From the NCBI GenBank assembly GCA_026874595.1, contig CM049314.1:51941812-52005811 (forward strand): a stretch of DNA of 64,000 nt, in the 5' to 3' direction. The number at the start of each line of letters is the position of its first letter. Positions within the stretch are counted from its first letter, which is position 1. This document shows positions 1,849 to 54,885 of this stretch, in pieces. A program made the position numbers and the translations under genes. The notes beneath the pieces were generated by a model that was given only the letters and a program-made list of their open reading frames with translations, had not been told where the DNA came from and did no database searches. The DNA is from Sipunculus nudus. Taxonomy: Eukaryota > Annelida > Sipuncula > Golfingiida > Sipunculidae.

Positions 1849-1890
1849 GACCGGTATGAAAACATAGTATCCCCCGACTTTGTCTGGGGA

Positions 1891-4800
1891 TACAATAAAT
1901 ACGGAGATCAGAGTTATAATAAATACAGAGATCAGGATAATAATAAATACGGAGATCAGGAAAATAATAAATACAGAGGTCAGAGTTATAATAAATACAG
2001 AGATCAGGGTTATAATAAAAACAGAGATCAGGATAATAATAAATACGGAGATCAGGGTTATAATAAATACAGAGATCAGAGTTATAATAAATACGGAGAT
2101 CAGAGTTATAATAAATACAGAGATCAGGATAATAATAAATACGGAGATCAGGGTTATAATAAATACAGAGGTCAGAGTTATAATAAATACAGAGATCAGG
2201 GCTATAATAAAAACAGAGATCAGAATAATAATAAATACGGAGATCAGGGTTATAATAAATACAGAGGTCAGAGTTATAATAAATACGGAGATCAGGGTTA
2301 TAATAAATACAGAGATCAGGAAAATAATAAATACGGAGATCAGGATAATAATAAATACAGAGGTCAGAGTTATAATAAATACAGAGATCAGGGTTATAAT
2401 AAAAACAGAGATCAGGATAATAATAAATACGGAGATCAGGGTTATAATAAATACAGAGGTCAGAGTTATAATAAATACGGAGATCAGAGTTATAATAAAT
2501 ACAGAGATCAGGGTTATAATAAATACAGAAATCAGGGTTATAATAAATACAGAGATCAAGATTATAATAAATACAGAGATAGGGTTATAATAAATACAGA
2601 AATCAGGGTTATAATAAATACAGAGATCAGTGTTATAATAAATACGGAGACCAGGGTTATAATAAATACAGAGATCAGGGTTATAATAAATACAGAGATC
2701 AAGATTATAATAAATACAGAGATAGGGTTATAATAAATACAGAAATCAGGGTTATAATAAATACAGAGATCAGGGTTATAATAAATACAGAGATCAGGAT
2801 AATAATAAATACGGAGATCAGAGTTATAATAAATACGGAGATCAGGGTTATAATAAATAAAGAGATCAGAGTTATAATAAATACGGAGACCAGGGTTATA
2901 ATAAATACAGAGATCAGGGTTATAATAAATACAGAGATCAAAATTATAATAAATACAGAGATAGGGTTATAATAAATACAGAAATCAGGGTTATAATAAA
3001 TACAGAGATCAGGGTTATAATAAATACAGAGATCAGGATAATAATAAATACGGAGATCAGGGTAATAATAAATACGGAGATCAGGGTTATAATAAATAAA
3101 GAGATCAGAGTTATAATAAATACGGAGATCAGAATTATAATAAATACAGAGATCAGGATAATAATAAATACGGAGATCAGGGTTATAATAAATACAGAGG
3201 TCAGAGTTATTATAAATAAAGAGATCAGAGTTATAATAAATACAGAGATCAGGATAATAATAAATACGGAGATCAGGGTTATAATAAATACAGAGGTCAG
3301 AGTTCTAATAAATACAGAGATCAGGGTTATAATAAATACAGAAATCAGGGTTATAATAAATACAGAGATCAGGGTTATAATAAATACGGAGACCAGGATT
3401 ATAATAAATACAGAGATCAGGGTTATAATAAATACAGAGATCAGGGTTATAATAAAAATAGAGATCAGGATAATAATAAATACGGAGATCAGGGTTATAA
3501 TAAATACAGAGGTCAGAGTTATACTAAATACAGAGATCAGGATAATAATAAATACGGAGATCAGGGTTATAATAAATACAGAGATCAGGATAATAATGAA
3601 TACGGAGATCAGGATAATATTAAATACAGAGGTCAGAGTTATAATAAATACAGAGATCAGGGTTATAATAAAAACAGAGATCAGAATAATAATAAATACG
3701 GAGATCAGGATTATAATAAATACACAGGTCAGAGTTATAAGAAATACGGAGATCAGGGTTATAATAAATACAGAGATCAGGATAATAATAAATACGGAGA
3801 TCAGGATAATAATAAATACAGAGGTCAGAGTTATAATAAATACAGAGATCAGGGTTATAATAAAAACAGAGATCAGGATAATAATAAATACGGAGATCAG
3901 GGTTATAATAAATACAGAGGTCAGAGTTATAATAAATACGGAGATCAGAGTTATAATAAATACAGAGATCAGGATAATAATAAATACGGAGATCAGGGTT
4001 ATAATAAATACAGAGGTCAGAGTTCTAATAAATACAGAGATCAGGGTTATAATAAATACAGAAATCAGGGTTATAATAAATACAGAGATCAGGGTTATAA
4101 TAAATACGGAGACCAGGGTTATAATAAATACAGAGATCAGGGTTATAATAAATACAGAGATCAAGATTATAATAAATACAGAGATAGGGTTATAATAAAA
4201 ACAGAAATCAGGGTTATAATAAATACAGATATCAGGGTTATAATAAATACAGAGATCAGGGTTATAATGAATACAGAGATCAGGTTTATAATAAATACAG
4301 AGATCAGGGTTATAATAAATACAGAGATCAGGGTTATAATAAATACAGAGATCAGGGTTATAATAAATACAGAGATCAGGGTTATAATAAATACAGAGAT
4401 CAGGGTTATAATAAATACAGAGATCAGGGTTATAATAAATACAGAGATCAGGGTTATAATAAATACAGAGATAGGGTTATAATAAATACAGAGATCAGGG
4501 TTATAATAAATGCAGAAATCAGGGTTATAATAAATACAGAAATCAGGGTTATAATAAATACAGAGATCAGGGTTATAATAATTACAGAGTTATACTAAAT
4601 ACAGAGATCAGGGTTATAATAAATACAGAGATCAGGGTTATAATAAATACAGAGATCAGGGTTATAATAAATACAGAGATCAGGGTTATAATAAATACAG
4701 AGATCAGGGTTATAATAAATAGAGAAATCAGGGTTATAATACATACAGAAATCAGGGTTATAATACATACAGAGATCAGGGTTATAATAAATACAGAGAT

Positions 4801-5901
4801 CAGGGTTATAATAAATACAGAGATCAGGGTTATAATAAATGCAGAAATCAGGGTTATAATAAATACAGAAATCAGGGTTATAATAAATACAGAGATCAGG
4901 GTTATAATAAATACAGAGATCAGGGTTATAATAAATACAGAGATCAGGGTTATAATAAATACAGAGATCAGGGTTATAATAAATACAGAGATCAGGGTTA
5001 TAATAAATACAGAGATCAGGGTTATAATAAATACAGAGATCAGGGTTATAATAAATACAGAGATCAGGGTTGAATTAAATACTGAGATCAGGGTTATAAT
5101 AAATACAGAGATCAGGGTTATAATAAATACAGAGATCAGGGTTGAATTAAATACAGAGATCAGGGTTATAATAAATACAGAGATCAGGGTTATAATAAAT
5201 ACAGAGATCAGGGTTATAATAAATACAGAGATCAGGGTTATAATAAATACAGAGATCAGGGTTATTATAAATACAGAGATCAGGGTTATTATAAATACAG
5301 TGATCAGGGTTATGATTAATACAGAGATCAGGGTTATGATAAATACAGAGATCTGGGTTATAATAAATACAGAGATCAGGGTTATAATAAATACAGAGAT
5401 CAGGGTTATAATAAATACAGAGATCAGGGTTATAATAAATACAGAGATCAGGGTTATAATAAATACAGAGATCAGGGTTATAATAAATACAGAGATCAGG
5501 GTTATAATAAATACAGAAATCAGGGTTATAATAAATACAGAGATCAGGGTTATAATAAATACAGAGATAGGGTTATAATAAATACAGAGATCAGGGTTAT
5601 AATAAATACAGAAATCAGGGTTATAATAAAAACAGAGATCAGGGTTGTAATAAATACAGAGATCAGGGTTGTAATAAATACAGAGATAGGGTTATAATAA
5701 ATACAGAGATAGGGTTATAATAAATACAGAGATCAGGGTTATAATAAATACAGAGATCAGGGTTATAATAAATACAGAGATCAGGGTTATAATAAATACA
5801 GAGATCAGGGTCATAATAAATACAGAGATCAAGGTTATAATAAATACAGGGATCAGGGCTATAATAAATACAGAGATCAAGGTTATAATAAATACAGGGA
5901 T
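1891..5901 (+). repeat. 24-bp minisatellite, about 165 copies
   Basis: The consensus unit is TTATAATAAATACAGAGATC followed by AGGG. Because 24 is a multiple of three, long octapeptide frames appear on both strands (NKYRDQGY, INTEIRVI, ISVFIITL). They end where 23-bp units (GAGATAGGG instead of GAGATCAGGG) shift the frame. The left half (to about 4200) mixes unit subtypes (CGGAGATCA, AGAGGTCA, GATAATAATA) in a higher-order order. The block 3241-3420 recurs at 3961-4140 (720 bp, 30 units) with one mismatch. The right half is much more homogeneous. Each unit contains one AATAAA hexamer on the plus strand. Confidence 0.95.
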
Positions 5902-5910
5902 CAGGGTTGG

Positions 5911-9418: not shown

Positions 9419-9521
9419 CCTTTTCGCCAGGTGGCACAAGATCGTCCGTCAAAATGTCTGCCATCGCATTCCTCGTGACCCCGTCTTAAATGACCATCCC
9501 CACAAAAAGACCTCCGACAGT
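9419..9521 (-). CDS. downstream exon of a cysteine-rich repeat gene
   Basis: This is a predicted internal exon of 103 nt on the minus strand. The acceptor is TTTCTTATAG (AG at 9523-9522) and the donor is GG|GTAGGTAT. Read with two leading bases it encodes 33 codons with the motif SFCGDGHLRRG, then HEECDGRHFDG, then RSCATWRK, followed by two bases. This pattern (CGDG, spacer, GEECDG, F.G.SC) resembles the disulfide-rich repeats known as DUF4215 or Myxococcus-type cysteine-rich repeats, found in extracellular proteins. The other two frames contain stops. The two leading bases AC complete the codon left open by the exon at 22927-23014 (A+AC = Asn). The second candidate donor, 4 bp further on, would include an in-frame TAG, so the first is preferred. 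The following exon is not recognised in the window. The binding partner and function are unknown. Confidence 0.7.
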
Positions 9522-12500
9522 CTATAAGAAACGGTATGCTGGTTAACAAACGGACCTCCTGCATGTCAATGAATAATCTAGTGGGTAACAAAAGTGTTCT
9601 GGATTTAACAGTATTATATGTTACGGATGTAATAGTTACTAATCAGCGTGAGGGATTGTATATTTACTTATTAACAGTGTCATCATTAACTTGAGGGACT
9701 GTACATTTACTTACTAACACAGTCATCATCAGCGTGACGGACTGTATATCTACTTACTAACACAGTTATCATCAGCATGACGGACTGTATATCTACTTAC
9801 TAACACAGTTATCATCAGCGTGACGGACTGTATATCTACTTACTAACACAGTTATCATCAGCATGACGAACTGTATATCTACTTACTAACACATTGATCA
9901 TCAGCATGACGGACTGTATATCTACTTACTCACACAGTAATCACTGTGTATTTACTAACTAACACTGTCCTCATCAGCGTGACGTACTGTAAATTTACTC
10001 ACTAACACAGTCATCATCAGCGTGACGGACTGTATATCTACTTACTAACACAGTTATCATCAGCATGACGAACTGTATATCTACTTACTAACAAATTTAT
10101 CATCAGCATGACGGACTGTATATCTACTTACTCACACAGTAATCACTGTGTATTTACTAACTAACACTGTCATCAACAGCGTGACGTACTGGAAATTTAC
10201 TCACTAACACAGTCATCATCAGCGTGACGGACTGAATATTTACGTACTTGCACAGTAATCACTGTGTATTTATTTACTAACACTGTCATCATCAGCATGA
10301 CGGACAGTATATCTACTTACTCACACAGTCCTCACTGTATATTTACTTACTAACACAGTCACCATCACCGTGACGGACTGTATATTTACTTACTAACACA
10401 GTCATCATCACCTTGACGGACTGTATATCTACTTACTAACACAGTTATCATCAGCATGACGGACTGTATATCTACTTACTAACACAGTTATCATCAGCGT
10501 GACGGACTGTATATCTACTTACTAACACAGTTATCATCAGCATGACGAACTGTATATCTACTTACTAACACATTGATCATCAGCATGACGGACTGTATAT
10601 CTACTTACTCACACAGTAATCACTGTGTATTTACTAACTAACACTGTCCTCATCAGCGTGACGTACTGTAAATTTACTCACTAACACAGTCATCATCAGC
10701 GTGACGGACTGTATATCTACTTACTAACACAGTTATCATCAGCATGACGAACTGTATATCTACTTACTAACAAATTTATCATCAGCATGACGGACTGTAT
10801 ATCTACTTACTCACACAGTAATCACTGTGTATTTACTAACTAACACTGTCATCAACAGCGTGACGTACTGTAAATTTACTCACTAACACAGTCATCATCA
10901 GCGTGACGGACTGAATATTTACGTACTTGCACAGTAATCACTGTGTATTTATTTACTAACACTGTCATCATCAGCATGACGGACAGTATATCTACTTACT
11001 CACACAGTCCTCACTGTATATTTACTTACTAACACAGTCACCATCACCGTGACGGACTGTATATTTACTTACTAACACAGTCATCATCACCTTGACGGAC
11101 TGTATATTTAAGTACTTGCACAGTCAACACTGTGTATTTATTTACTAACACAGTCCTCATCAGCGTGACGGACTGCTATCTACTTACACAGTCATCACTG
11201 TGTATTTACTTACTAACACAGTCATCATCAGCGTGACAGACTGTATATCTACTTACAAAGTCATCATCAACGTGACGGACTGTACATTTACTTACTAACA
11301 GAGTTATCATCAGCGTGACGGACTGTATATCTACTTACTAACACAGTCATCATCAGCATGACGAACTGTTTATCTACTTACTAACACATTTATCATCAGC
11401 ATGACGGACTGTATATCTACTTACTCACACAGTAATCACTGTGTATTTACTAACTAACACTGTCCTCATCAGCGTGACGTACTGTAAATTTACTCACTAA
11501 CACAGTCATCATCAGCGTGACGGACTGTATATCTACTTACTAACACAGTTATCATCAGCATGACGAACTGTATATCTACTTACTAACACATTTATCATCA
11601 GCTTGACGGACTGTATATCTACTTACTCACACAGTCAATATCAGCATGACGAACTGTATATCTACTTACTAACACATTTATCATCAGCATGACGAACTGT
11701 ATATCTACTTACTAACACATTTATCATCAGCATGACGGACTGTATATCTACTTACTCACACAGTAATCACTGTGTATTTACTAACTAACACAGTTATCAT
11801 CAGCATGACGGACTGTATATCTACTTACTCACACAGTCAATATCAGCATGACGAACTGTATATCTACTTACTAACACAGTTATCATCAGCATGACGAACT
11901 GTATATCTACTTACTAACACATTTATCATCAGCATGACGGACTGTATATCTACTTACTCACACAGTAATCACTGTGTATTTACTAACTAACACTGTCCTC
12001 ATCAGCGTGACGTACTGTAAATTTACTCACTAACACAGTCATCATCAGCGTGACGGACTGTATATCTACTTACTAACACAGTTATCATCAGCATGACGAA
12101 CTGTATATCTACTTACTAACACATTTATCATCAGCATGACGGACTGTATATCTACTTACTCACACAGTAATCACTGTGTATTTACTAACTAACACTGTCC
12201 TCATCAGCGTGACGTACTGTAAATTTACTCACTAACACAGTCATCATCAGCGTGACGGACTGTACATTTACTTACTAACAGAGTTATCATCAGCATGACG
12301 AACTGTATATCTACTTACTAACACATTTATCATCAGCGTGACGGACTGTATATCTACTTACTCACACAGTCAATATCAGTTTGACGAACTGTATATCTAC
12401 TTACTAACACAGTTATCATCAGCATGACGGACTGTATATCTACTTACTAACACATTTATCATAAGCATGACGGACTGTATATCTACTTACTCACACAGTA

Positions 12501-15500
12501 ATCACTGTGTATTTTCTAACTAACACTGTCCTCATCAGCGTGACGTACTGTAAATTTACTCACTAACACAGTCATCATCAGCATGACGGACTGTATATCT
12601 ACTTACTAACACAGTTATCATCAGCATGACGAACTGTATATCTACTTACTAACACATTTATCATCAGCATGACGGACTGTATATCTACTTACTCACACAG
12701 TAATCACTGTGTATTTACTAACTAACACTGTCCTCATCAGCGTGACGTACTGTAAATTTACTCACTAACACAGTCATCATCAGCGTGACGGACTGTATAT
12801 CTACTTACTAACACAGTTATCATCAGCATGACGAACTGTATATCTACTTACTAACACATTTTTCATCAGCATGACGGACTGTATATCTACTTACCCACAC
12901 AGTAATCACTGTGTATTTACTAACTAACACTGTCATTAACAGCGTGACGTACTGTAAATTTACTCACTAACACAGTCATCATCAGCGTGACGGACTGAAT
13001 ATTTACGTACTTGCACAGTAATCACTGTGTATTTATTTACTAACACTGTCATCATCAGCATGACGGACAGTATATCTACTTACTCACACAGTCCTCACTG
13101 TATATTTACTTACTAACACAGTCACCATCACCGTGACGGACTGTATATTTACTTACTAACACAGTCATCATCACCTTGACGGACTGTATATTTAAGTACT
13201 TGCACAGTCATCACTGTGTATTTATTTACTAACACAGTCCTCATCAGCGTGACGGACTGCTATCTACTTACACAGTCATCACTGTGTATTTACTTACTAA
13301 CACAGTCATCATCAGCGTGACAGACTGTATATCTACTTACAAAGTCATCATCAGCGTGACGGACTGTACATTTACTTACTAACAGAGTTATCATCAGCGT
13401 GACAGACTGTATATCCACTTACTAACACAGTCATCATCAGCATGACGAACTGTTTATCTACTTACTAACACATTTATCATCAGTATGACGGACTGTATAT
13501 CTACTTACTCACACAGTCCTCACTGTATCTTTACTAACTAACACAGTCACCATCACCGTGACGGACTGTATATTTACTTACTAACACAGTCATCATCACC
13601 GTGACGGACTGTATATTTACGTACTTACACAGTCATCACTGTGTATTTATTTACTAATACAGTCCTCATCAGCGTGACGGACTGCTATCTACTTACACAG
13701 TCATCACTGTGTATTTACTTACTAACACAGTCATCATCAGCGTGATAGACTGTATATCTACTTACAAAGTTATCAGCGTGACGGACTGTACATTATTTAC
13801 TAACACAGTCATCATCAGCGTGAAGGAATGTATATCTACTTATTAACACAGTCATCACTGTATATTTACTTACTAACACAGTCACCATCAGAGTGACGGA
13901 CTGTATATTTAAATACTAACACAGTCATCATCAGCGTGAAGGAATGTATATCTACTTATTAACACAGTTATCACTGTATATTTACTTACTAACACAGTCA
14001 CCATCAGCGTGACGGACTGTACATTTAATTACTAACACAGTCATCATCAGCGTGAAGGAATGTATATCTACTTAATAATACAGTCAACACTGTATATCTA
14101 CTTACTAACAAAGTCACCATCAGAGTGACTGACTGTATATTTACATACTAACACAGTCTTCACTGTGTATTTACTTACTAACACAGTCACCATCAGCGTG
14201 ACAGACTGTATATCTACTTAAAAAGTCATCATCAGCGTGACGGAATGTATATCTACTTACTCAAACAGCCATCACTGTGTATTTACTAACCAACACAGTC
14301 CTCAACAGCGTGACGTACTGTAAATTTACTCACTAACACAGTCATCATCAGCGTGACGGACTGTATATCTACTTTCTAACACAGTTATCATCAGCATGAC
14401 GAACTGTATATCTACTTACTAACACATTTATCATCAGCATGACGGACTGTATATCTACTTACTCACACAGTAATCACTGTGTATTTACTAACTAACACTG
14501 TCATCATCAGCGTGACGTACTGTAAATTTACTCACTAACACAGTCATCATCAGCGTGACGGACTGAATATTTACGTACTTGCACAGTAATCACTGTGTAT
14601 TTATTTACTAACACTGTCATCATCAGCATGACGGACAGTATATCTACTTACTCACACAGTCCTCACTGTATATTCACTTACTAACACAGTCACCATCACC
14701 GCGACAGACTGTATATTTACTTACTAACACAGTCATCATCACCTTGACGGACTGTATATTTAAGTACTTGCACAGTCATCACTGTGTATTTATTTACTAA
14801 CACAGTCCTCATCAGCGTGACGGACTGCTATCTACTTACACAGTCATCACTGTGTATTTACATACTAACACAGTCATCATCAGCGTGACAGACTGTATAT
14901 CTACTTACAAAGTCATCATCAGCGTGACGGACTGTAAATTTACTTACTAACAGAGTTATCATCAGCGTGACGGACTGTATATCTACTTACTAACACAGTC
15001 ATCATCAGCATGACGAACTGTTTATCTACTTATTAACACATTTATCATCAGCATGACGGACTGTATATCTACTTACTCACACAGTCCTCACTGTATCTTT
15101 ACTAACTAACACAGTCACCATCACCGTGACGGACTGTATATTTACTTACTAACACAGTCATCATCACCGTGACGGACTGTATATTTACGTACTTGCACAG
15201 TCATCACTGTGTATTTATTTACTAATACAGTCCTCATCAGCGTGACGGACTGCTATCTACTTACACAGTCATCACTGTGTATTTACATACTAACACAGTC
15301 ATCATCAGCGTGATAGACTGTATATCTACTTACAAAGTCATCATCAGCGTGACGGACTGTATATCTACTTACTCACACAGTCCTCACTGTATCTTTACTA
15401 ACTAACACAGTCACCATCACCGTGACGGACTGTATATTTACTTACTAACACAGTCATCATCACCGTGACGGACTGTATATTTACGTACTTGCACAGTCAT

Positions 15501-18500
15501 CACTGTGTATTTATTTACTAACACAGTCCTCATCAGCGTGACGGACTGCTATCTACTTACACAGTCATCACTGTGTATTTACTTACTAACACAGTCATCA
15601 TCAGCGTGACAGACTGTATATCTACTTACAAAGTCATCATCAGCGTGACGGACTGTATATCTACTTACTAACACAGTCATCATCAGCATGACGAACTGTT
15701 TATCTACTTATTAACACATTTATCATCAGTATGACGGACTGTATATCTACTTACTCACACAGTCCTCACTGTATCTTTACTAACTAACACAGTCACCATC
15801 ACCGTGACGGACTGTATATTTACTTACTAACACAGTCATCATCACCGTGACGGACTGTATATTTACGTACTTACACAGTCATCACTGTGTATTTATTTAC
15901 TAATACAGTCCTCATCAGCGTGACGGACTGCTATCTACTTACACAGTCATCACTGTGTATTTACTTACTAACACAGTCATCATCAGCGTGATAGACTGTA
16001 TATCTACTTACAAAGTCATCAGCGTGACGGACTGTACATTACTTACTAACACAGTCATCATCAGCGTGAAGGAATGTATATCTACTTATTAACACAGTCA
16101 TCACTGTATATTTACTTACTAACACAGTCACCATCAGAGTGACCGACTGTATATTTAAATACTAACACAGTCATCATCAGCGTGAAGGAATGTATATCTA
16201 CTTATTAACACAGTTATCACTGTATATTTACTTACTAACACAGTCACCATCAGCGTGACGGACTGTACATTTAATTACTAACACAGTCATCATCAGCGTG
16301 AAGGAATGTATATCTACTTAATAATACAGTCAACACTGTATATCTACTTACTAACACAGTCACCATCAGCGTGACAGACTGTATATCTACTTACTCAAAC
16401 AGCCATCACTGTGTATTTACTAACCAACACAGTCCTCAACAGCGTGACGGACTGTAAATTTACTTACTAACACAGTAATCATCAGCGTGACGGACAGTAT
16501 ATTTACTAACTAATACAGTCATCATCAGCGTGACGGACAGTATATCCACTTACTCACACAGTCATCACTGTATATTTACTTACTAACACAGTCACCATCA
16601 GCGTGACGGACTGTACATTTAATTACTAACACAGTCATCATCAGCGTGAAGGAATGTATACCTACTTAATAACACAGTCAACACTGTATATCTACTTACT
16701 AACAAAGTCACCATCAGAGTGACTGACTGTATATTTACATACTAACACAGTCTTCACTGTGTATTTACTTACTAACACAGTCACCATCAGCGTGACAGAC
16801 TGTATATCTACTTAAAAAGTCATCATCAGCGTGACGGAATGTATATCTACTTATTAACACAGCCATCACTGTGTATTTACTTACCAACACAGTCCTCAAC
16901 AGCGTGACGGACTGTAAATTTACTTACTAACACAGTAATCATCAGCGTGAAGGACAGTATATTTACTTACTAATACAGTCATCATCAGCTTGACGGACAG
17001 TATATCCACTTACTCACACAGTCATCACTGTATATTTACTTACTAACACAGTCCTCATCAGAGTGACGGACTGCATATCTACTTACTCACACAGTCATCA
17101 CTGTATATTTACTTACTAACACAGTTACCATCAGCGTGACAGACTGTATATCTACTTACAAAATCATCTTCAGCGTGACGGACTGTATATTTACATACTT
17201 ACACAGTCATCACTGTGTATTGATTTACTAACACAGTCATCATCAGCGTGACGGACAGTATATTTACTTACTAATACAGTCATTTTCAGCGTGACGGACA
17301 GCATATCTACTTACTAACACAGTCATCACTGTGTATTTACTTACTAATGCAGTCATCATCAGCGTGACAGACTTTATATCTACTAACAAAGTCATCATCA
17401 GCACGACGGACTGTATATTTACTTACTAATACAGTCCTCAACAGCGTGACGGACTGTAAATTTACTTAATAACACAGTCATCATCAGCGTGACGGACTGT
17501 ATATCTACCTTATAACACAGTCATCATCAGCGTGACGGACTGTATATCTACTTAGTGACACTGTCATCATCACAGTGACGGACTGTATATCAACTTATTA
17601 ACACAGTCATCAGTGTATTTCCTTACTTACACAGTCATCATCAGCGTGGCCGACTGTATAACTACTTACTAACACAGTCATCACTGTGTATTTACTTACT
17701 AAGACAGTCATCATCAGCGTGACGGACTGTATATCTTCTTACTAACACAGTCATCACTGTGTATTACTTACTGATACCGTCATCATCAGCGTGACGGACT
17801 GTATATCTACTTACTAACACAGTCATCACTGTGTATTACTTACTGATACCGTCATCATCAGCGTGACGGACTGTATATCTACTTACTAACACATTCATCA
17901 CTGTGTATTTACTTACCAACACTGTGTATTACTTACTGATACCGTCATCTTCAGCGTGACGGACTGTATATCTACTTACTAACACAGTCATCACTGTGTA
18001 TTTACTTACCAACACAGTCCTCAACAGCGTGACGGACTGTAAATTTACTTACTAACACAGTAATCATTAGCGTGACGGAGAGTATATTTACTTACTAACA
18101 CAGTCATCATCACCGTGACGGACTGTATATTTACGTACTTACACAGTCATCACTGTGTATTTATTTACTAATACAGTCCTCATCAGCGTGACGGACTGCT
18201 ATCTACTTACACAGTCATCACTGTGTATTTACTTACTAACACAGTCATCATCAGCGTGATAGACTGTATATCTACTTACAAAGTCATCAGCGTGACGGAC
18301 TGTACATTACTTACTAACACAGTCATCATCAGCGTGAAGGAATGTATATCTACTTATTAACACAGTCATCACTGTATATTTACTTACTAACACAGTCACC
18401 ATCAGAGTGACGGACTGTATATTTAAATACTAACACAGTCATCATCAGCGTGAAGGAATGTATATCTACTTAATAACACAGTCAACACTGTATATTTACT

Positions 18501-21500
18501 TACTAACACAGTCACCATCAGAGTGACGGACTGTATATTTAAATACTAACACAGTCATCATCAGCGTGAAGGAATGTATATCTACTTATTAACACAGTTA
18601 TCACTGTATATTTACTTACTAACACAGTCACCATCAGCGTGACGGACTGTACATTTAATTACTAACACAGTCATCATCAGCGTGAAGGAATGTATATCTA
18701 CTTAATAATACAGTCAACACTGTATATCTACTTACTAACAAAGTCACCATCAGAGTGACTGACTGTATATTTACATACTAACACAGTCTTCACTGTGTAT
18801 TTACTTACTAACACAGTCACCATCAGCGTGACAGACTGTATATCTACTTAAAAAGTCATCATCAGCGTGACGGAATGTATATCTACTTACTCAAACAGCC
18901 ATCACTGTGTATTTACTAACCAACACAGTCCTCAACAGCGTGAAGGACTGTAAATTTACTTACTAACACAGTAATCATCAGCGTGACGGACAGTATATTT
19001 ACTAACTAATACAGTCATCATCAGCGTGACGGACAGTATATCCACTTACTCACACAGTCATCACTGTATATTTACTTACTAACACAGTCACCATCAGCGT
19101 GACGGACTGTACATTTAATTACTAACACAGTCATCATCAGCGTGAAGGAATGTATACCTACTTAATAACACAGTCAACACTGTATATCTACTTACTAACA
19201 AAGTAACCATCAGAGTGACTGACTGTATATTTACATACTAACACAGTCTTCACTGTGTATTTACTTACTAACACAGTCACCATCAGCGTGACAGACTGTA
19301 TATCTACTTAAAAAGTCATCATCAGCGTGACGGAATGTATATCTAATTATTAACACAGCCATCACTGTGTATTTACTTACCAACACAGTCCTCAACAGCG
19401 TGACGGACTGTAAATTTACTTACTAACACAGTAATCATCAGCGTCAAGGACAGTATATTTACTTACTAATACAGTCATCATCAGCTTGACGGACAGTATA
19501 TCCACTTACTCACACAGTCATCACTGTATATTTACTTACTAACACAGTCCTCATCAGAGTGACGGACTGCATATCTACTTACTCACACAGTCATCACTGT
19601 ATATTTACTTACTAACACAGTTACCATCAGCGTGACAGACTGTATATCTACTTACTAACACAGTCATTATCAGCGTGACGGACTGTATATCTACTTACTA
19701 ACACAGTCCTCACTTTGTATTTACTTACTAACACAGTCATCACTGTGTATTTACTAACTAATACAGTCAATACGGTGTACTTACTTACTAACACAGTCAT
19801 CATAAGCCTTACAGATTGTATATATACTCACACAGTCATCATCAGCTTGCAGACTGTATATATAATTACACAGTCATCATCAGCGTGGCCGACTGTATAA
19901 CTACTTACTAACACAGACATCACTGTGTATTTACTTACTAAGACAGTCATCCTCAGCGTGTGACGGACTATATATCTACTTACTGACACAGTCATCACTG
20001 TGTATTAACTTACTTACACAGTCATCATCAGCGTTACCGACTGTATAACTACTTACTTACTCAGTCATCACTATGTATTTACTAACTAACAGTCATCACT
20101 GTGTATTTACTTACTAACACAGTCATCATCAGCGTGACGGACTTAATATCTAATTACTAACATAGTCATCACTGTGTATTTACTTACTAACACAGTCATC
20201 ATCAGCGTGACGGACTGTATAACCACTTACTTACACAGTCATCACTGTGTATTTACTTACTAACACTGTCATCATCAGCGTGACGTACAGTATATCTTCT
20301 TATTAACACAGTCATCATCAGCGTGACCGACTGTATAACTACTTACTTACACAGTCAACACTGTATATCTACTTACAAAATCATCTTCAGCGTGACGGAC
20401 TGTATATTTACATACTTACACAGTCATCACTGTGTATTGATTTACTAACACAGTCATCATCAGCGTGACGGACAGTATATTTACTTACTAATACAGTCAT
20501 TTTCAGCGTGACGGACAGCATATCTACTTACTAACACAGTCATCACTGTGTATTTACTTACTAATGCAGTCATCATCAGCGTGACAGACTTTATATCTAC
20601 TTACAAAGTCATCATCAGCACGACGGACTGTATATTTACTTACTAATACAGTCCTCAACAGCGTGACGGACTGTAAATTTACTTAATAACACAGTCATCA
20701 TCAGCGTGACGGACTGTATATCTACCTTATAACACAGTCATCATCAGCGTGACGGACTGTATATCTACTTAGTAACACTGTCATCATCACAGTGACGGAC
20801 TGTATATCAACTTATTAACACAGTCATCAGTGTATTTCCTTACTTACACAGTCATCATCAGCGTGGCCGACTGTATAACTACTTACTAACACAGTCATCA
20901 CTGTGTATTTACTTACTAAGACAGTCATCATCAGCGTGACGGACTGTATATCTACTTACTAACACAGTCATCACTGTGTATTACTTACTGATACCGTCAT
21001 CATCAGCGTGACGGACTGTATATCTACTTACTAACACAATCATCACTGTGTATTACTTACTGATACCGTCATCATCAGCGTGACGGACTGTATATCTACT
21101 TACTAACACAGTCATCACTGTGTATTTACTTACCAACACTGTGTATTACTTACTGATACCGTCATCATCAGCGTGACGGACTGTATATCTACTTACTAAC
21201 ACAGTCATCACTGTGTATTTACTTACCAACACAGTCCTCAACAGCGTGACGGACTGTAAATTTACTTACTAACACAGTAATCATTAGCGTGACGGAGAGT
21301 ATATTTACTTACTAATACAGTCATCCTCAGCGTGACGGACAGTATATCTACTTACTAACACTGTCATCATCAGCGTGAAGGACTGTATATCTACTTATTC
21401 ACACAGTCATCATCAGCTTGGCGGACTGAATATCTACTTACTTACACAGTCATCACTGTGTATTTACTTACTAACACAGTCATTATCAGCGTGACGGACT

Positions 21501-22926
21501 GTATATCTACTTACTAACACAGTCCTCACTTTGTATTTACTTACTAACACAGTCATCACTGTGTATTTACTAACTAATACAGTCAATACGGTGTACTTAC
21601 TTACTAACACAGTCATCATAAGCCTTACAGATTGTATATATACTCACACAGTCATCATCAGCTTGCAGACTGTATATATAATTACACAGTCATCATCAGC
21701 GTGGCCGACTGTATAACTACTTACTAACACAGACATCACTGTGTATTTACTTACTAAGACAGTCATCCTCAGCGTGTGACGGACTATATATCTACTTACT
21801 GACACAGTCATCACTGTGTATTTACTTACTTACACAGTCATCATCAGCGTTACCGACTGTATAACTACTTACTAACTAACAGTCATCACTGTGTATTTAC
21901 TTACTAACACAGTCATCATCAGCGTGACGGACTTAATATCTAATTACTAACATAGTCATCACTGTGTATTTACTTACTAACACAGTCATCATCAGCGTGA
22001 CGGACTGTATAACCACTTACTTACACAGTCATCACTGTGTATTTACTTACTAACACTGTCATCATCAGCGTGACGTACAGTATATCTACTTATTAACACA
22101 GTCATCATCAGCGTGACCGACTGTATAACTACTTACTTACACAGTCATCACTATGTATTTACTAACTAACAGTCATCACTGTGCATTTACTTACTAACAC
22201 AGTCATCATCAGCGTGACGGACTATATATCTACTTACACTGTCATCATCAGCGTGACGGACTTTATATCTACTTATTCACACAGTCATCATCAGCTTGAC
22301 GGACTGCTATCTACTTACTAACATAGTCATCACTGTGTATTTACTTACTAACACAGTCATCATCAGATAGACGGACTGTATATCTACTTACCAACACGGC
22401 CATCACTGTGTATTTACTTACTAACGGTCATCACTGTGTATTTTCTTACTAACACTGTCATCATCAGCGTGACTGACTGTATATCTACTTACTAACACAG
22501 TCTTCACTTTGTATTTTCTTACTAACACAGTCATCACTGTGTATTTACTAACTAATACAGTCATCACGGTGTATTTACTTACAAACACAGTCATCATAAG
22601 CCTTACAGACTGTATATATACTGACACAGTCATCATCAGCGTGACTGACTGTATATCTACTTACCAACACAGTCATCACTGTGTATTTACTTACTAATCC
22701 AGTCGTCACTGTGTATTTACTAACTAATACAGTCATCACGGTGTATTTACTTACTTACACAGTCATCATAAGCCTGACAGACTGTATATATCCTGACACA
22801 GTCATCATCAGCGTGACTGACTGTATATCTACTTACCAACACAGTCATCACTGTGTATTTACTTACTAATCCAGTCATCACTGTATATCTACTTACTAAC
22901 ACAGTCATCACTGTGTATTTACTTAC
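9522..22926 (-). other. predicted 13.4-kb intron occupied by a satellite array
   Basis: The intron is bounded by GTAAGTAAAT at its 5' end (22926 downward) and CGTTTCTTATAG at its 3' end (to 9522) on the minus strand. The flanking exons encode consecutive modules of the same cysteine-rich family and their phases match. All but about 120 bp of the intron is tandem repeat. Confidence 0.65.
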
Positions 22927-22952
22927 TAACACAGTCATCATCAGCGTGACGG
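9640..22952 (-). repeat. 43-bp / 30-bp satellite derived from an exon-intron junction
   Basis: Over 300 units. The main unit is 43 bp (for example CGGACTG at 9781 and 9824). A shorter type of about 30 bp lacks the AGCGTGACGG part. On the minus strand the 43-bp unit contains the last 26 nt of the exon at 22927-23014 (starting CCGTCACGC and ending GTGTTA), then GTAAGTA. The last unit of the array is the exon end itself. Many units also contain CACAGT-CATC-ACTGTG, a 6-bp stem with a 4-base loop. Large blocks repeat: spacings of 679 bp (9781 and 10460), 2268 bp (15841 and 18109), 3217 bp (17164 and 20381) and 1816 bp (19715 and 21531). Open frames reading YLLTNTV repeats are by-products. Confidence 0.92.
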
Positions 22953-23014
22953 TTGCCGTCGTCACATTGCTCTCCCAGGTCGTCGTCTATGATGCCGTCG
23001 CCACACGTGCTCAC
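22927..23014 (-). CDS. upstream exon of a cysteine-rich repeat gene
   Basis: This is a predicted 88-nt internal exon on the minus strand. The acceptor is TTTTATTCATTGTAG (AG at 23016-23015) and the donor is TTA|GTAAGTAAA, a perfect GTAAGT. It encodes 29 codons plus one base: VSTCGDGIIDDD, then LGEQCDDGN, then RHADDDCV. The CGDG...GEQCDDGN...DDDC spacing is the hallmark of DUF4215 / Myxococcus-type cysteine-rich repeats, usually in secreted or cell-surface proteins (family knowledge). Introns argue against bacterial contamination. The next exon, by phase and motif order, is 9419-9521. No earlier exon was recognised between 23015 and the end of the window, so the start of the gene is outside it or in exons too small to see. 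Its 3' 26 nt are the template sequence of the adjoining satellite. Confidence 0.7.
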
Positions 23015-26331: not shown

Positions 26332-26715
26332 CCCCTGTAAACCTTTCTATCACTGTGGATGCCAGGGGCACGGAGGATCACCAGCTTAAGACACACTCCC
26401 TGGATGCATCCACTACTGATATATTTCCCATGGATGCACTCTGTATTAGATGCATCTGCCTATACATCATACCCACAAAGACCAAGGATTAAAGCATACC
26501 TCCAACTACAGTGACTGTGAGAATGGGGCTAGGTATGGTGCCAGTGACAGTGACAGAGCCCCTGTAAACCTTTCTAACACTGTGGATGCCAGGGGCATGG
26601 AGGATCATCAGCTTAAGACACACTCCCTGGATGCATCCACCACTGATATATTGCCCTGGATGCACTCTGTCTAAGATGCATCTGCCTATACATCATACCC
26701 ACAAAAACCAAGGTG
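26332..26715 (+). repeat. 227-bp segmental duplication at the array edge
   Basis: CCCCTGTAAACCTTTCTA...GGATGCCAGGGGCA...CTTAAGACACACTCCCTGGA...TACATCATACCCACAAA occurs from 26332 and again from 26559, 227 bp apart with a few mismatches. It embeds one early unit of the 78-bp satellite (26500-26558) and forms the junction between GC-rich sequence and the array. Confidence 0.85.
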
Positions 26716-29700
26716 TTAATCATACCTCCAACTAAAGCGACTGTGAGAATCGGGCTGGGTGTGGTGCCAGTGACAGTGACAGTGACAATGGTGTTAAGCA
26801 TACCTCCATCTACAGTGACTGTGAGAATGGGACTGGGTATGGTGCCAGTGACAGTGACAGTGACAATGGTGTTAAGCATACCTTCCACTACAGTGACTGT
26901 GAGAATGAGTCTGGGTATGGCGCCAGTGACAGTGACAGTGACAGCGACAATAACTACAGTGACTGTGACAATGGGGCAAGGTATGGAGCCAGTGACAGTG
27001 ACAGTGACAGTGACAATGGTGTTAAGCATACCTTCCACTACAGTGACTGTGAGAATGAGTCTGGGTATGGCGCCAGTGACAGTGACAGTGACAGCGACAA
27101 TAACGTTAAGCATACCTTCCACTACAGTGACTGTGAGAATGGGGCTGGGTATGGCGCCAGTGACAGTGACAGTGACAGTGACAATAGTGTTAAGCATACC
27201 TCCAACTACAGTGACTGTAGGAATAGGGCCGGGTATGGAGCCAGTGACAGTGACAATGGTGTTAAGCATACCTTCCACTACAGTGGCTGTGAGAATGGGT
27301 CTGAGTATGGTGGCAGTGACAGTGACAGTGACAGTGACAATGGTGTTAAGCATACCTCCAACTACAGTGACTGTGATAATATAGCTTGGTATGGTGCCAG
27401 TGACAGTGACAGTGACAGTGACAATGGTGTTAAGCATACCTCCAACTACAGTCACTGTGAGAATGTGGCTGGGTATGGTGACAGTGACAGTGACAATGGT
27501 GTTAAGCATACCTTCAACTACAGTCACTGTGAGAATGTGGCTGGGTATGGTGACAGTGACAGTGACAATGGTGTTAAGCATACCTCCAACTACAGTCACT
27601 GTGAGAATGTGGCTGGGTATAGTGACAGTGACAATGGTGTTAAGCATACCTTCCACTACAGTGACTGTGAGAATGGGGCTGGGTATGGTGCCAGTGACAG
27701 TGACAGTGACAGTGGTGTTAATCATAGCTCCTGTAAATTACAGGGCCAGTGACAGCCAGTGACAGTGACAGTGACAATGGTGTTAAGCATACCTTCCACT
27801 ACAGTGACTGTGAGAATGGGTCCGGGTATGGTGTCAGTGACAGTGACAGTGACAGCAACAATGGTGTTAAGCACACCTTCCACTACAGTGACTGTGAGAA
27901 TGGGGCTGGGTATCGCCCCAGTGACAGTGACAGTGACAATGGGGTTAAGCATACCTTCCACTTCAGTGACTGTGAGAATGGGTCTGAGTATGGTGCCAGT
28001 GACAGTGACAGTACCAGCAACAATGGTGTTAAGCATACCTTCCACTACAGTGACTGTGAGAATGGGGCTGGGTATCGCGCTAGTGACAGTGACAGTGACA
28101 ATGGGGTTAAGCATACCTTCCACTTCAGTGACTGTGAGAATGGGGCTGAGTATGGTGCCAGGGACAGTGACAGTGACAGCAACAATGGTGTTAAGCATAC
28201 CTTCCACTACAGTGACTGTGAGAATGGGGCTGGGTATCGCGCCAGTGACAGTGAGAGTGACGATGGGGTTAAGCATACCTTCCACTACAGTGACTGTGAG
28301 AATGGGTCCGGGTATGGTGCCAGTGACAGTGACAGTGACAGCAACAATGGTGTTAAGCATACCTTCCACTACAGTGACTGTGAAAATGGGGCTGGGTATC
28401 GCGCCAGTGACAGTGACAGGGACAATGGGGTTAAGCATACCTTCCACTACAGTCACTGTGAGAATCGGGCAAGGTATGGCTCCAGTTACAGTGACAGTGA
28501 CAGCAACAATGGTGTTAAGCATACCTTCCACTACAGTGACTGTGGGAATGTTGCCGGGTATGGCGCCAGTGACAGTGACAGTGACAATGGGGTTAAGCAT
28601 ACCTTCCACTTCAGTGACTGAGAGAATGGGTCTGGGTATGGTGCCAGTGACAGTGACAGTGACAATGGTGTTAAGCATACCTTCCACTACAGTGACTGTG
28701 AGAATGGGGCTGGGTATGGCGCCAGTGACAGTGACAGTGACAATGGGGTTAAGCATACCTTCCACTTCAGTGACTGTGAGAATGGGGCTGGCTATGGTGC
28801 CAGTGACAGTGACAGTGACAATAGTGTTAAGCATACCTCTAACTACAGTGACTGTGGGAATAGGGCTGGGTATGGAGCCAGTGACAGTGACAGTGACAAT
28901 GGTGTTAAGCATACCTTCCACTACAGTGGCTGTGAGAATGGGTCTGAGTATGGTGGTAGTGACAGTGACAGTGACAGCGACAATAGTGTTAAGCATACCT
29001 CCAACTACAGTCACTGTGAAAATGGGGCTGGGTATGGCGCCAGTGACAGTGACAGTGACAGTGACAAAGTGACTGTGAGAATGGGGCTGGGTATGGTGCC
29101 AGTGACAGTGACAGTGACAAAGGTGTTAAGCATACCTCCAACTACAGTGACTGTGGGAATGTTGCTGGGTATGGCGACAGTGACAGTGACAATGGGGTTA
29201 AGCATACCTTCCACTTCAGTGACTGTGAGAATGGGGCTGGGCATGGTGCCAGTGACAGTGACAGTGACAATGGGGTTAAGCATACCTCCAACTACAATGA
29301 CTGTGGGAATAGGGCCGGGTATGGAGCCAGTGACAGTGACAATGGTGTTCAGCATACCTTCCACTACAGTGACTGAGAGAATGGGTCTCAGTATGGTGGC
29401 AGTGACAGTGACAGTGACAGGGACAATGGTTTTATGCATACCTCCAACTACAGTGACTGTGATAATATAGCTTGGTATGGTGCCAGTAACAGTGACAGTG
29501 ACAATGGTGTTAAGCATACCTCCAACTACAGTCACTGTGAGAATGTGGCTGGGTATGGTGACAGTGACAGTGACAATGGTGTTAAGCATACCTTCCACTA
29601 CAGTGACTGTGAGAATGGGGCTGGGTATGGCGCCAGTGACAGTGACAGTGACAGTGACAATGGGGTTAAGCACACCTTCCACTTCAGTGACTGTGAGAAT

Positions 29701-32700
29701 GGGGCTGGGTATGGTGACAGTGACAGTGACAATAGTGTTAAGCATACCTCCAACTACAGTGACTGTGGGAATAGAGCCAGGTATGGAGCCAGTGACAGTG
29801 ACAGTGACAATGGTGTTAAGCATACCTTCCACTACAGTGACTGTGAGAATAGGTCTCAGTATGGTGGCAATGACAGTGACAGTGACAGCGACAATAGTGT
29901 TAAGCATACCTCCAACTACAGTGACTGTGAAAATGGGGCTGGGTATGGCGCCAGTGATAGTGACAGTGACAAAGTGACTGTGAGAATGGGTCTGAGTATG
30001 GTGGCAGTGACAGTGACAGTGACAGCGACAATAGTGTTAAGCATACCTCCAACTACAGTGACTGTGAGAATGGGGCTGGGTATGGCGCCAGTGACAGTGA
30101 CAGTGACAGTGACAATGGGGTTAAGCATACCTCCAACTACAGTGACTGTAAGAATGGGGCTGGGTATGGTGCCAGTGACAGTGACAGTGACAAAGGTGTT
30201 AAGCATACCTCCAATTACAGTGACTGTGGGAATGTTGTTGGGTATGGCGCCAGTGACAGTGACAGTGACAATGGGGTTAAGCATACCTTCCACTTCAGTG
30301 ACTGTGAGAACGGGGCTTGGTATGGTGCCAGTGAAAGTGACAGTGACAGTGACAATGGTGTTAAGCATACCTCCAACTACAGTGACTGTGGGAATAGGGC
30401 CGGGTATGGAGCCAGTGACAGTGATAGTGACAATGGTGTTAAGCATACCTTCCACTACAGTGACTGTGAGAATGGGTCTGAGTATGGTGGCAGTGACAGT
30501 GACAGTGACAGCGACAATGGTGTTAAGCATACCTTCCACTACAGTGACTGAGAGAATGGGTCTCAGTATGGTGGCAGTGACAGTGACAGTGACAATGGGG
30601 TTAAGCATACCTTCCACTTCAGTGACTGTGATAATATAGCTTAGTATGGTGCCAGTGACAGTGACAGTGACAATGGTGTTAAGGATACCTCCAACTACAT
30701 TCACTGTGAGAATGTGGCTGGGTATGGTGACAGTGACAGTGACAGTAACAATGGTGTTAAGCATACCATCCACTACAGTGACTGTGAGAATGGGGCTGGG
30801 TATGGTGCCAGTGACAGTGACAGTGACAGTGGTGTTAAGCATAGCTCCTGTAAATTACAGTGCCAGTGACAGCCAGTGACAGTGACAGTGACAATGGTGT
30901 TAAGCATACCTTGAACTACAGTGACTGTGAGAATGGGGCTGGGTATGGCGCCAGTGACAGTGACAGTGACAGTACAATGGTGTTAAGCATACCTTCCACT
31001 TCAGTTACTGTGAGAATGGGGCTGGGTATGGTGCCAGTGACAGTGACAGTGACAATGGGGTTAAGCATACCTTCCACTTCAGTGACTGAGAGAATGGGTC
31101 TGGGTATGGTGCCAGTGATAGTGACAGTGACAGCAACAATGGTGTTAAGCATACCTCCAACTACAGTGACTGTTAGAATAGGGCCGGGTATGGAGCCAGT
31201 GACAGTGCATGTGACAATGGTGTTAAGCAAACCTCCAACTACAGTGACTTTGATAATATGTGCGTATGGCGCCAGTGACAGTGACAGTGACAGTGACACT
31301 GGTGTTAAGCATACCTTCCACTACAGTCACTGTGAGAATAGGGCAAGGTATGGCTCCAGTGACAGTGACAGTGACAATGGGGTTAAACATACCTTCCACT
31401 ACAGTGACTGTGAGAATGGGGCTGGGTATGTTGCCGGTGACAGTGACAGTGACAGTGACAATAGTGTTAAGCATACCTCCAACTACAGTGACTGTGGGAA
31501 TAGGGCCAGGTATGGAGCCAGTGACAGTGACAGTGACAATGTTGTCAAGCATACCTTCCACTAGAGTGACTGTAAGAAAGGGTCCGAGTATGGTGGCAGT
31601 GACAGTGACAGTGACAGCGACAATGGAGTTATGCATGCCTCCAACTACAGTGACTGTGAAAATATAACTTGGTATGGTGCAAGTGACAGTGACAGTGACA
31701 ATGGTGTTAAGCATACCTCCAACTACAGTCACTGTGAGAATGTGGCTGGGTATGGTGCCAGTGACAGTGACAGTGAGAGCGACAATGGAGTTATGCATGC
31801 CTCCAACTACAGTGACTGTGATAATATAGCTTGGTATGGTGCCAGTGACAGTGACAGTGACAATGGTGTTAAGCATACCTCCAACTTCAGTCACTGTGAG
31901 AATGTGGCTGGGTATGGTGACAGTGACAGTGACAGTGACAATGGTGTTAAGCATACCTTCCACTACAGTGACTGTGAGAATGGGGCTGGGTATGGTGCCA
32001 GTGACAGTGACAGTGACAGTGGTGATAAGCATAGCTACTGTAAATTACATGGCCAGTGACAACCAGTGACAGTGACAGTGACAATGGTGGTAAGCATACC
32101 TCCATCTACAGTGACTGTGTGAATGTGGCTGGGTATAGTGCCAGTGACAGCGACAATGGTTTTATGCATGCCTTCCACTACAGTGACTGTGTGAATGGGG
32201 CTGGGTATGGCGCCAGTGACAGTGACAGTGATAATGGGGTTAAGCATACCTTCCACTTCAGTGACTGTGAGAATGGCGCTGAGTATGGTGCCAGTGACAG
32301 TGACAGTGACAGTGACAAAGGTGTTAAGCATACCTCCAACTACAGCGACTGTGGGAAAGTTCCGCCTGGTATGGCCCCAGTGACAGTGACAATGGTGTTA
32401 AGCATACCTTCCACTACAGTGACTGTGAGAATGGGGCTTGGTATGGCGCCAGTGACAGTGACAGTGACAGTGACGGTGACAATTGTGTTAAGCATACCTT
32501 CCACTACAGTGACTGTGAGAATGGGGCTGGGTATGGCGCCAGTGACAGTGACAGTGACGGTGACAATGGGGTTAAGCATACCTTCCACTTCAGTAACTGT
32601 GAGAATAGGGCTGGGTAAGGTGCCAGTGACAGAGACAGTGACAATAGTGTTAAGCATACCTCCAACTACAGTGACTGTGAGATTTTGCTGTTTATGGTGC

Positions 32701-34715
32701 CAGTGACAGTGACAGTGACAATGGTGTTAAGCATACCTCCAACAACAGTCTCTGTGGAATGAGGCAAGGTTTGGTGCCAGTGACAGTGACAGGGACAGTG
32801 ACAATGGTGTTAAGCATACCTCCAACTACAGTGACTGTGATAATGTGGCTGGGTATGGTGACAGTGTCAGTGACAGTGACCGTGACAGGGACAATTGGGT
32901 AAAGCATACCTTCCACTTCAGTGACTGTGAGAATGGGTCGGAGTATTGTGGCAGTGACAGTGACAGTGACAGCGACAATGAGGTTAAGCATACCTCCAAC
33001 TACAGTGACTGTGAGAATAGGGCTGGGTATGGAGCCAGTGACAGTGCCAGTGACAATGGTGTTAAGCATACCTTCCACTACAGTGACTCTGAGAATCGGG
33101 CAAGGTATGGCGCCAGTGACAGTGACAGTGACAATGGGGTTAAGCATGCCTTCCACTACAGTGACTGTGAGAATGGGGCTGGGTATGGTGCCAGTGACAG
33201 CGACAGTGACAGAGACAATAGTGTTATGCATGCCTCCAACTACAGTGACTGTGATAATATAGCTTGGTATGGTGACAGTGACAGTGACAGTGACAACAGT
33301 GTTAAGCATACCTTCCACTACAGTGACTGTGAGAATGGGGCTGGGTATGGTGCCAGTGACAGTGACAGTGGTGTTAAGCATAGCTCCTGTAAATTACAGG
33401 ACCAGTGACAGCCAGTGACAGTGACAGTGACAATGGTGGTAAGCATACCTCCATCTACAGTGACTGTGGCTGGGTATGGTGCCAATGACAGCGACAATGG
33501 TTTTAAGCATGCCTTCCACTACAGCGACTGTGAGAATGGGGCTGTGTATGGCGCCAGTGACAGTGACAGTGACAATGGGGTTAAGCATACCTTCCACTTC
33601 AGTGACTGTGAGAATGGGGCTGAGTATGGTGCCAGGGACAGTGACAGTGACAAAGGTGTTAAGCATACCTTCATCTACAGTGACTGTGAGAATGGGGCTG
33701 TGTATGGTGCCAGGGACAGTGACAGTGACAATGGGGTTAAGCATACCTTCCACTTCAGTGACTGTGAGAATGGGGCTGTGTATGGCGCCAGTGACAGTGA
33801 CAGTGACAGTGACAATGGGGTTAAGCATACCTTCAACTACAGTGACTGTGAGAATGGGGCTGTGTATGGCGCCAGTGACAGTGACAGTGACAGTGACAAT
33901 GGGGTTAGGCATACCTTCCACTTCAGTGACTGTGAGAATGGGGCTGAGTATGGTGCCTGGGACAGTGACAGTGACAAAGGTGTTAAGCATACCTTCCACT
34001 TCAGTGACTGTGAGAATGGGTCTGGGTATGGTGCCAGGGACAGTGACAGTGACAGTGACAATGGGGTTAAGCATACCTTCAACTACAGTGACTGTGGTAA
34101 TGTTGCCGGGTATGGCACCAGTAACAGTGACAGTGACAGTGACAATAGTGTTAAGCATACCTTCCACTACAGTGACTGTGAGAATGGGGCTGGGTATGGC
34201 GCCAGTGACAGTGACAGTGACAGTGACAATGGGGTTAAGCATACCTTCCACTTCAGTGACTGTGAGAATGGGGCTGGGTATGGTGCCAGTGACAGTGACA
34301 GTGACAAAGGTGTTAAGCATACCTTCCACTACAGTGACTGTGGGAATGTTGCTGGGTATGGCGCTAGTGACAGTGACAGTGACAGTGACAATGGGGTTAA
34401 GCATACCTTCCAGTTCAGTGACTGGGAGAATGGGTCTGGGTATGGTGCCAGTGACAGTGACAGTGACAATGGTGTTAAGCATACCTTCCACTACAGTGAC
34501 TGTGAGAATGGGGATGGGTATGGCGCCAGTGACAGTGACAGTGACAGTGACAATGGGGTTAAGCATACCTTCCACTACAGTGACTGTGAGAATGGAGCTG
34601 GGTATGGTGACAGTGACAGTGACAGTGACAATAGTGTTAAGCATACCTCCAACTACAGTGACTGTGGGAATAGGGCCGGGTATGGAACCAGTGACAGTGA
34701 CAGTGACAATGGTGT
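26716..34715 (+). repeat. 78-bp satellite, plus orientation, about 100 copies
   Basis: The unit runs from GTTAAGCATACCTTCCACTA through CAGTGACTGTGAGAATGGGG and CTGGGTATGGCGCCAGTGAC to a hexamer run (AGTGAC)n of two to four copies. Unit lengths are therefore mostly 72, 78 or 84 bp, all multiples of six. As a result several frames on both strands stay open for hundreds of codons (HTFHYSDCENGAGYGASDSD, VTVTVTMVLSIPSTTVTV). There is no start context, splicing or composition that marks any of them as real. The marker CTGTAAATTACAG recurs near 27731, 30848, 32039 and 33388. The array ends abruptly at about 34715. Confidence 0.93.
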
Positions 34716-35175
34716 CAAGTTGATGCCAGGATCCTTCTGTTCTCTCAAAATTTTTACCTATGAATGTAGCACCTTCTTCTGAGAAGCACGTAGAAAATGT
34801 AAAGATAGGAGGAACTCTGCAAAAAAATCGGTCATTTTTTCAGAAATTATTTGTGTCTAATAACATGTAAACACAAAGTGTCTGATGGCTTGTGGATCCT
34901 GATTTCTTGACACTTCTGTCACTAACACAACTGTCACAATATTTCCATAGTATATTAGTATGGTAAAGGAAAAAGGTAAATCTGATGCAGTGTATCAAAG
35001 GTCCCCAAACCACCCATCATTTTTAGTGCTAGACTAGTTTAAACCGGGTTTTAAGTTTAGTTTAACAATAGACTATAATTTTGATAGGGATACACAATCA
35101 TCCCTGTTCATTTGACAAAAAATATAAATGATAATTCTGTTTGTGAAATTGGGTGCAACAGAAAACTGATTGTTG
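34716..35175. other. single-copy spacer between two satellites, no gene recognised
   Basis: AT-rich, with no recognisable motif or frame. Confidence 0.5.
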
Positions 35176-54625: not shown

Positions 54626-54885
54626 ATCCCAATAGTGCCCCGACCACCACCCCAGGATGGTGGCTGTGGTGAGTCCCTCTGAACTGGGAGGATGCCTATC
54701 AATGTGAGCCATAGCTGGGTGGATGCAAGGGACATGGAGGTAGCCCCGCAGTTTTTGACATCCAAAAACTGCCGGCTCGCCCTCCCGGTCTGTCCCGGAC
54801 CATTCCGGGCCATCCCGGACCATTCAGGCAGCGCTAAGGCTTACACCCCAGACCTATCCGTGGCACTGCCGTAGCTCGGCCGGGT
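54626..54885 (-). repeat. GC-rich CCCGGA-motif block, right arm (inverted)
   Basis: The block contains CCCGGACCATTCCGGGCCATCCCGGACC, given here only by its key words TCCCGGACCATTCCGGG and ATCCCGGACC. On the minus strand it has GGTCCGGGATGG, CCGGCAGTTTTTGG and ACCTCCATGTCCCTTGC, the same words in the same order as the left block at 25720-26331 although shorter. It borders the right pseudogene piece. Confidence 0.65.

Follow-up and report, generated by a model that had tools for sequence, protein, structure and literature searches.

The analysed stretch of DNA, hereafter the window, comprises 64,000 nucleotides of the genome of Sipunculus nudus (C9:51941812-52005811, within a 1.43-Gb genome in 153 contigs). 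Its minus strand carries a predicted two-exon gene of a cysteine-rich family, and the intron between the two exons is almost entirely satellite DNA: of its 13,405 nt, a length taken from one assembly, the array occupies 13,271 nt (99.0%), in agreement with the satellite-filled 13.4-kb intron reported in a first-pass annotation made from the sequence alone. The coordinates of the features are collected in Table 1.

Table 1. Features of the predicted gene and of the array in its intron, in window coordinates and in the order of the minus strand
Feature	Coordinates	Strand	Description
Predicted exon 1	22927..23014	(-)	88 nt; first DUF4215 module CGDG...GEQCDDGN...DDDCV; starts in phase 0 and leaves 1 base
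Exon 1 last 26 nt	22927..22952	(-)	part repeated in the satellite; encodes two conserved residues of the module, Asp and Cys
Exon 1 donor GTAAGT	22921..22926	(-)	same hexamer as the donor-like one of the repeat unit
Intronic satellite	9656..22926	(-)	43-bp and 30-bp units, made of the exon 1 tail and the first 16 intron bases including GTAAGT
Outer limits of multi-unit block cover	9688..22166	(-)	blocks of 200+ bp at >=97% identity
Non-repeat or very degenerate intron 3' end	9522..9655	(-)	holds the T-rich acceptor of exon 2
Predicted exon 2	9419..9521	(-)	103 nt; second module NCRRSFCGDG...EECDG...SC; 2-base start, phase 2 end

The predicted gene and its protein family

Both exons lie on the minus strand where they had been proposed, with AG and GT at their borders, and their splice phases are compatible, the one base left by the first and the two bases that open the second together giving Asn. 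The assignment of the two modules to one cysteine-rich family was likewise borne out by Pfam and by a test of the join. The joined peptide reaches 33.9 bits against PF13948 (DUF4215), for which the curated cut-off is 27, whereas the single exons remain below it (26.8 bits for exon 1 with its read-through residues VSK and 13.9 for exon 2). When five residues of exon 2 are added to exon 1, the Pfam score rises from 24.7 to 28.9 bits, as against only 24.9 with read-through residues.

A profile of 78 prokaryotic relatives was compared with the 7,073 open frames of at least 15 aa in 164 kb, and the two exons were its top matches, with E-values of 1.7e-7 and 7.9e-7; the next frame had an E-value of 0.77, and no other was below 0.1. 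Among 6,908 joins of exon 1 to AG sites (those downstream on the minus strand, with the plus strand as a control), the named join was the best at 59.3 bits, the runner-up reaching 39.3. The profile test and the set of homologues both start from the joined query. With the exons as the two best profile matches and their join at the top of all those tested, the view that independent decoys are improbable holds.

The relatives come from a scan of prokaryotic genomes that gave at least 577 pattern matches, of which at least 341 were confirmed and the best 80 loci were kept. In 78 of these 80 loci the alignment runs from residue 20 or earlier to residue 44 or later, in one frame across the junction; the loci were picked by similarity to the joined query, so they attest that tandem modules exist and do not gauge how frequent they are. 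The first-pass annotation had held that a lack of homologues with the two modules side by side would speak against the gene, and at the sequence level these relatives have them. The Cys that directly follows the junction is kept in 75 of the 78 relatives, and the two exons keep the conserved cysteines of the relatives at peptide positions 3, 16, 27, 30, and 47. The spacing near the junction is not identical, with one gap position there in 59 of the 78 relatives and none in 14.

For the joined peptide, the PDB search gave a phage tail sheath protein as the top match (E 0.053), which we take as chance, and pappalysin-1 as the second, in a weak alignment that spans the junction (E 0.17). The further exons that were to be sought around the two did not appear: neither a regular expression nor the profile found another DUF4215 exon in 164 kb. 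A six-frame search of the genome gave no place over the PF13948 cut-off; exon 1 itself scored just 24.4 bits there, so that the sensitivity of this search is limited. Six weak PF13948 matches at other genomic places were rejected, since none contained tandem modules (the prokaryotic profile gave 11.3 bits at best), and none of the 10 minus-strand candidate frames scanned with Pfam, out of 318 listed, matched DUF4215. Rfam found nothing at gathering scores within the window. Taken together, the data support, at the level of sequence, a predicted two-module cysteine-rich gene with a satellite-filled intron.

The array and its units

The first-pass annotation had described the satellite as lying between two exons. 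That it is flanked by exon 1 stands, but it had been overlooked that the units are themselves copies of the 3' end of exon 1 and of its donor; the donor and tail of exon 1 are therefore not evidence independent of the array. A two-template decomposition by dynamic programming divides 22951-9606 into 350 units, with 231 assigned to the 43-bp class, 118 to the 30-bp class and one lying inside exon 1, the last unit being very degenerate; lengths of 39, 42, 25 and others are counted within the two classes, and the counts depend on the two templates. The 43-bp unit corresponds to the last 26 nt of exon 1 and the first 16 nt of the intron, and the 30-bp unit to the last 14 nt of exon 1 and the same 16 nt. 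The 43-bp consensus, derived from 194 full-length units (TCCGTCACGCTGATGATGACTGTGTTA/GTAAGTAAATATACAG), is identical to the genomic junction (ACCGTCACGCTGATGATGACTGTGTTA/GTAAGTAAATACACAG) at 41 of 43 positions; the 30-bp consensus, built from 103 units, agrees with the exon 1/intron junction at 28 of 30. The sense strand of 9520-23014 contains GTAAGT 236 times, where a first-order model of the same sequence predicts 22.6, and the other strand contains none. Judged by its sequence, the array is a 'mirage', the name given to minisatellites that extend across an exon-intron boundary: its unit spans the boundary of its host, and its units carry splice signals.

Two probes detect the array in one intron of the genome and nowhere else. 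With a 22-base probe and up to two mismatches, all 172 matches in the genome fall in the window, one of them being exon 1 itself; a 21-base probe with up to one mismatch gave 138 matches, again all in the window (backward control, 3). The matches in the window lie on the minus strand at 9728-22951; the counts for the genome are complete, and places are given for the first 100 matches listed. Copies at other loci, as a dispersed satellite would have, were not found with these probes, which more diverged copies would escape.

The array also bears a record of its growth. About 93% of it lies within blocks of at least 200 bp that occur a second time with at least 97% identity; the longest pair of blocks measures 1,077 bp. 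The cover by such blocks amounts to 22% in the first kilobase at the exon, 90% in the second and 100% in the interior, so that the exon-proximal ~785 bp lie outside recent blocks, while the far edge is covered almost to its end. The divergence of the units from their templates is about 11% (10.5-12.2% in bins) and has no gradient along the array. The block pattern and the flat divergence would fit an old duplication of units at the exon edge, followed by a recent duplication of blocks inside.

The array (9656-22926) is richer in G than in C on the sense strand, with a plus-strand GC skew of -0.25 to -0.30 in bins over 10001-22000. This excess could favour RNA-DNA hybrids, if the array is transcribed.

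Origin, splicing and possible roles of the array

We consider it probable that the array is a mirage-type minisatellite that was born from the exon and grew to satellite size in an intron across which exon 1 is spliced to exon 2. Its founding event would have been a tandem duplication that took in the final 14-26 nt of exon 1, its 5' splice site and about 16 intronic nt. Unequal exchange would then have multiplied the units, singly at the beginning and afterwards in blocks several hundred bases long, until they made up 99% of the intron. If so, the probable birthplace of this satellite, the 3' end of a single exon together with its donor, is known with single-base precision.

Mirages have been described from lancelets, in Adh3 and the globin genes BflGb6 and BflGb9 (PMC3087553) and in PGBD5 and troponin C (PMC3902484). 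The former report states that many units carry splice signals, that the boundaries of the clusters are left out of homogenisation, that RT-PCR suggests undisturbed splicing, and that BflGb6 haplotypes have 6 and 3 units (PMC3087553). The lancelet mirages resemble our array as tandem repeats of an exon-intron boundary with splice signals in many units, and the exon-proximal part of the array, which recent blocks do not reach, may correspond to their edges (PMC3087553), whereas the far edge, covered to 9688, differs from the exon edge. Normal splicing and length instability are reported for the lancelet repeats, and in size the array, with about 350 units in 13.3 kb, far exceeds the 6 and 3 units of BflGb6.

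Human repeats provide further comparisons. The CBS VNTR c.1444_1467+7 has 16 to 21 copies of units that are invariably 31 bp long (PMC2630376); by its name, the unit comprises 24 exonic and 7 intronic bases and so spans the 3' border of an exon, as the array does, but our array numbers about 350 copies, with units of two main lengths. In human segmental duplications, minisatellites occur at exon-intron borders and can create introns (PMC2812944); these have on average a 30-bp unit in four copies, in recent paralogues, as compared with some 350 units here. The ABCA7 VNTR is, like the array, a tandem array in an intron of a coding gene, and its length is tied to splicing (PMC5954066); the abstract does not describe its unit as derived from an exon border. 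A limited literature search, in the portions of the sources available, found no boundary-spanning array of comparable size, and the array is larger than the copy numbers that this search found reported for boundary repeats. Mirage-type repeats would thus be extended from a few reported units to about 350.

The U1 consensus and exon definition serve as background for judging which donor is used. Exon 1 has a donor that scores 7/11 against the 11-base U1 consensus, and GT sites scoring at least as high number 511 of 1,837 in the intron and 60 of 791 in the control; 78 intronic GT sites score better on this consensus. Moreover, 226 GT sites of the intron have at least seven contiguous U1 matches, compared with one in 14.6 kb of control DNA from the window. 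With so many better or long-matching decoys, the choice of the right donor is not obvious from the sequence, and the locus may serve to examine how the spliceosome picks the correct donor when 226 same-strand sites match U1 over an equal length. Acceptors in the array are poor: at the 329 CAG sites of the array the upstream pyrimidine fraction does not exceed 0.53, as against 0.71 and 0.65 for the two real acceptors.

Exon definition, with an acceptor just above 23014 and a donor 88 nt away, would select the exon-borne donor; the decoy donors would sit inside the future intron, and the first strong acceptor downstream would be that of exon 2. If exon 1 is read through, the frame closes with a stop directly after VSK, ahead of any later donor. 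Every later donor would accordingly meet this same VSK-stop, so that mis-splicing would yield one truncated form. Most likely, the exon-borne donor is chosen and the array is tolerated as a passenger. Recursive splicing was considered and rejected, neither AGGTAAGT nor AGGTGAGT being present in the intron.

The direction of events is not fixed by the match of exon 1 with the consensus alone, as 23 units of the array hold an exact 25-mer of the exon. By its tail, then, exon 1 is an ordinary unit, and the boundary between exon and array is seamless, which would also be expected if exon 1 had been extended into the edge of an older satellite and owed its terminal 26 nt, as well as the donor, to a repeat unit. 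Such a capture is unlikely: the satellite would have had to supply by chance the Asp and the Cys encoded by the shared tail, each of which is kept in 77 of the 78 relatives, and the tail raises the Pfam score by 3.3 bits (21.4 to 24.7). The two probes, moreover, place the repeat here alone in the genome, as a local birth predicts. Because the shared tail supplies these conserved residues and adds to the score, the simplest reading is that the exon came first and the array later. An array could also grow without a functional frame beside relics of a dead gene, with exons that no longer function, and the large arrays all around, together with the absence of further modules of this family from 164 kb, are compatible with this; it is nevertheless improbable, for both exons are open, their splice sites are matched in phase, and they retain the conserved cysteines although the units of the array differ by about 11% from their templates.

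The array might also have a role. The units could be regarded as a bank of in-frame mini-exons, variably included, each consisting of 27 nt between CAG and GTAAGT and encoding IRHADDDCV-like peptides. GTRAGT is present in 159 of the 231 units of the 43-bp class and stands at 27 nt in 135 of them, all of which (135/135) lack in-phase stops and preserve the frame. However, no stop was found in 194 units where column shuffles give 0.7, so freedom from stops is expected anyway and is no evidence of use. The ratio of the units that resembles dN/dS is 0.93, none of the 329 CAG sites has an upstream pyrimidine fraction of 0.6 or more, and, of the 30-bp units, 31 have the donor at 14 nt and 44 have it at 10 nt, neither distance being a multiple of three. 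The units are without sign of coding selection, and we regard the mini-exon bank as highly improbable. Another function would be that of an element that binds U1 or tunes splicing, its donors suppressing early polyadenylation or its copy number setting the share of the VSK-stop form. The contrast between 226 long U1 matches and a single one in the control is in keeping with this, as is the correlation between VNTR length and exon skipping in the intron of human ABCA7 (PMC5954066). The donor hexamers, however, are barely more conserved than the rest, with a divergence of 7.1% vs 7.8% and 9.6% in the 43-bp class and of 7.4% vs 9.6% and 9.6% in the 30-bp class, and the lancelet mirages are reported not to disturb splicing (PMC3087553, PMC3902484); the probability of such an element appears low. 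Its more specific form, a working splicing buffer in which U1 binds to the gene's own donor in its hundreds of copies throughout the 13-kb intron, with an effect on isoforms or polyadenylation, strikes us as quite unlikely. If it were true, the number of units, altered by block duplication between individuals, would set the ratio of the full protein to the VSK-stop form, or alternatively the array would shield the long intron from early polyadenylation.

Other repeats and open frames

Several other tandem repeats were noted in the window. A 77-bp satellite extends over 35184-45415 and beyond, and its unit contains CCAGTAAGTGTTTG; it was considered as a second case of a boundary repeat, as it holds GTAAGT, but was rejected because it is dispersed, with 8,407 probe matches in the genome on both strands. 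Several long open frames run through the 78-bp array at 26712-34719 on both strands (SDSDSDNGVKHTFHYSDCENGAGYGA is a plus-strand example), and similar peptides are found in open frames near 51148-54840; this array is probably a minisatellite that does not code, with a unit length divisible by three. Several frames are also open in the 24-bp array at 1887-5908 (168 copies), and at 3-1232 a 289-bp unit is present in 4.3 copies with an inner period of 146 bp.

Two long open frames on the minus strand lie outside the window. One, some 17 kb beyond it, contains a 1,046-aa stretch (L007:6861-9998) of a frame of 1,062 aa, with Colipase-like (eight stretches) and HU-CCDC81 matches over the cut-offs; the other, to the left of the window, is a frame of 418 aa (L005:6570-7823) with three OCRE-like stretches over the cut-off. 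Either frame may be a repeat, and the OCRE, Colipase-like and HU-CCDC81 matches may be chance matches to repeats.

Twelve myosin loci of the genome were scanned for tandem repeats, and no listed repeat overlaps the matched exon, the start of the match being assumed at base 1501; as far as these 12 loci tell, mirages are no rule in this genome. A muscle myosin exon matched some squid and scallop chains best, 0.7 to 2.9 bits above chains named Myosin-6, a weak pointer towards molluscs; molluscan haemocyanin and GFP families yielded nothing, a negative that carries no weight. At C2:44849337-44852248 of the same assembly (G000), successive matches to one segment of the myosin head (profile positions 109-153) follow one another, as in the alternative exons of muscle myosin.
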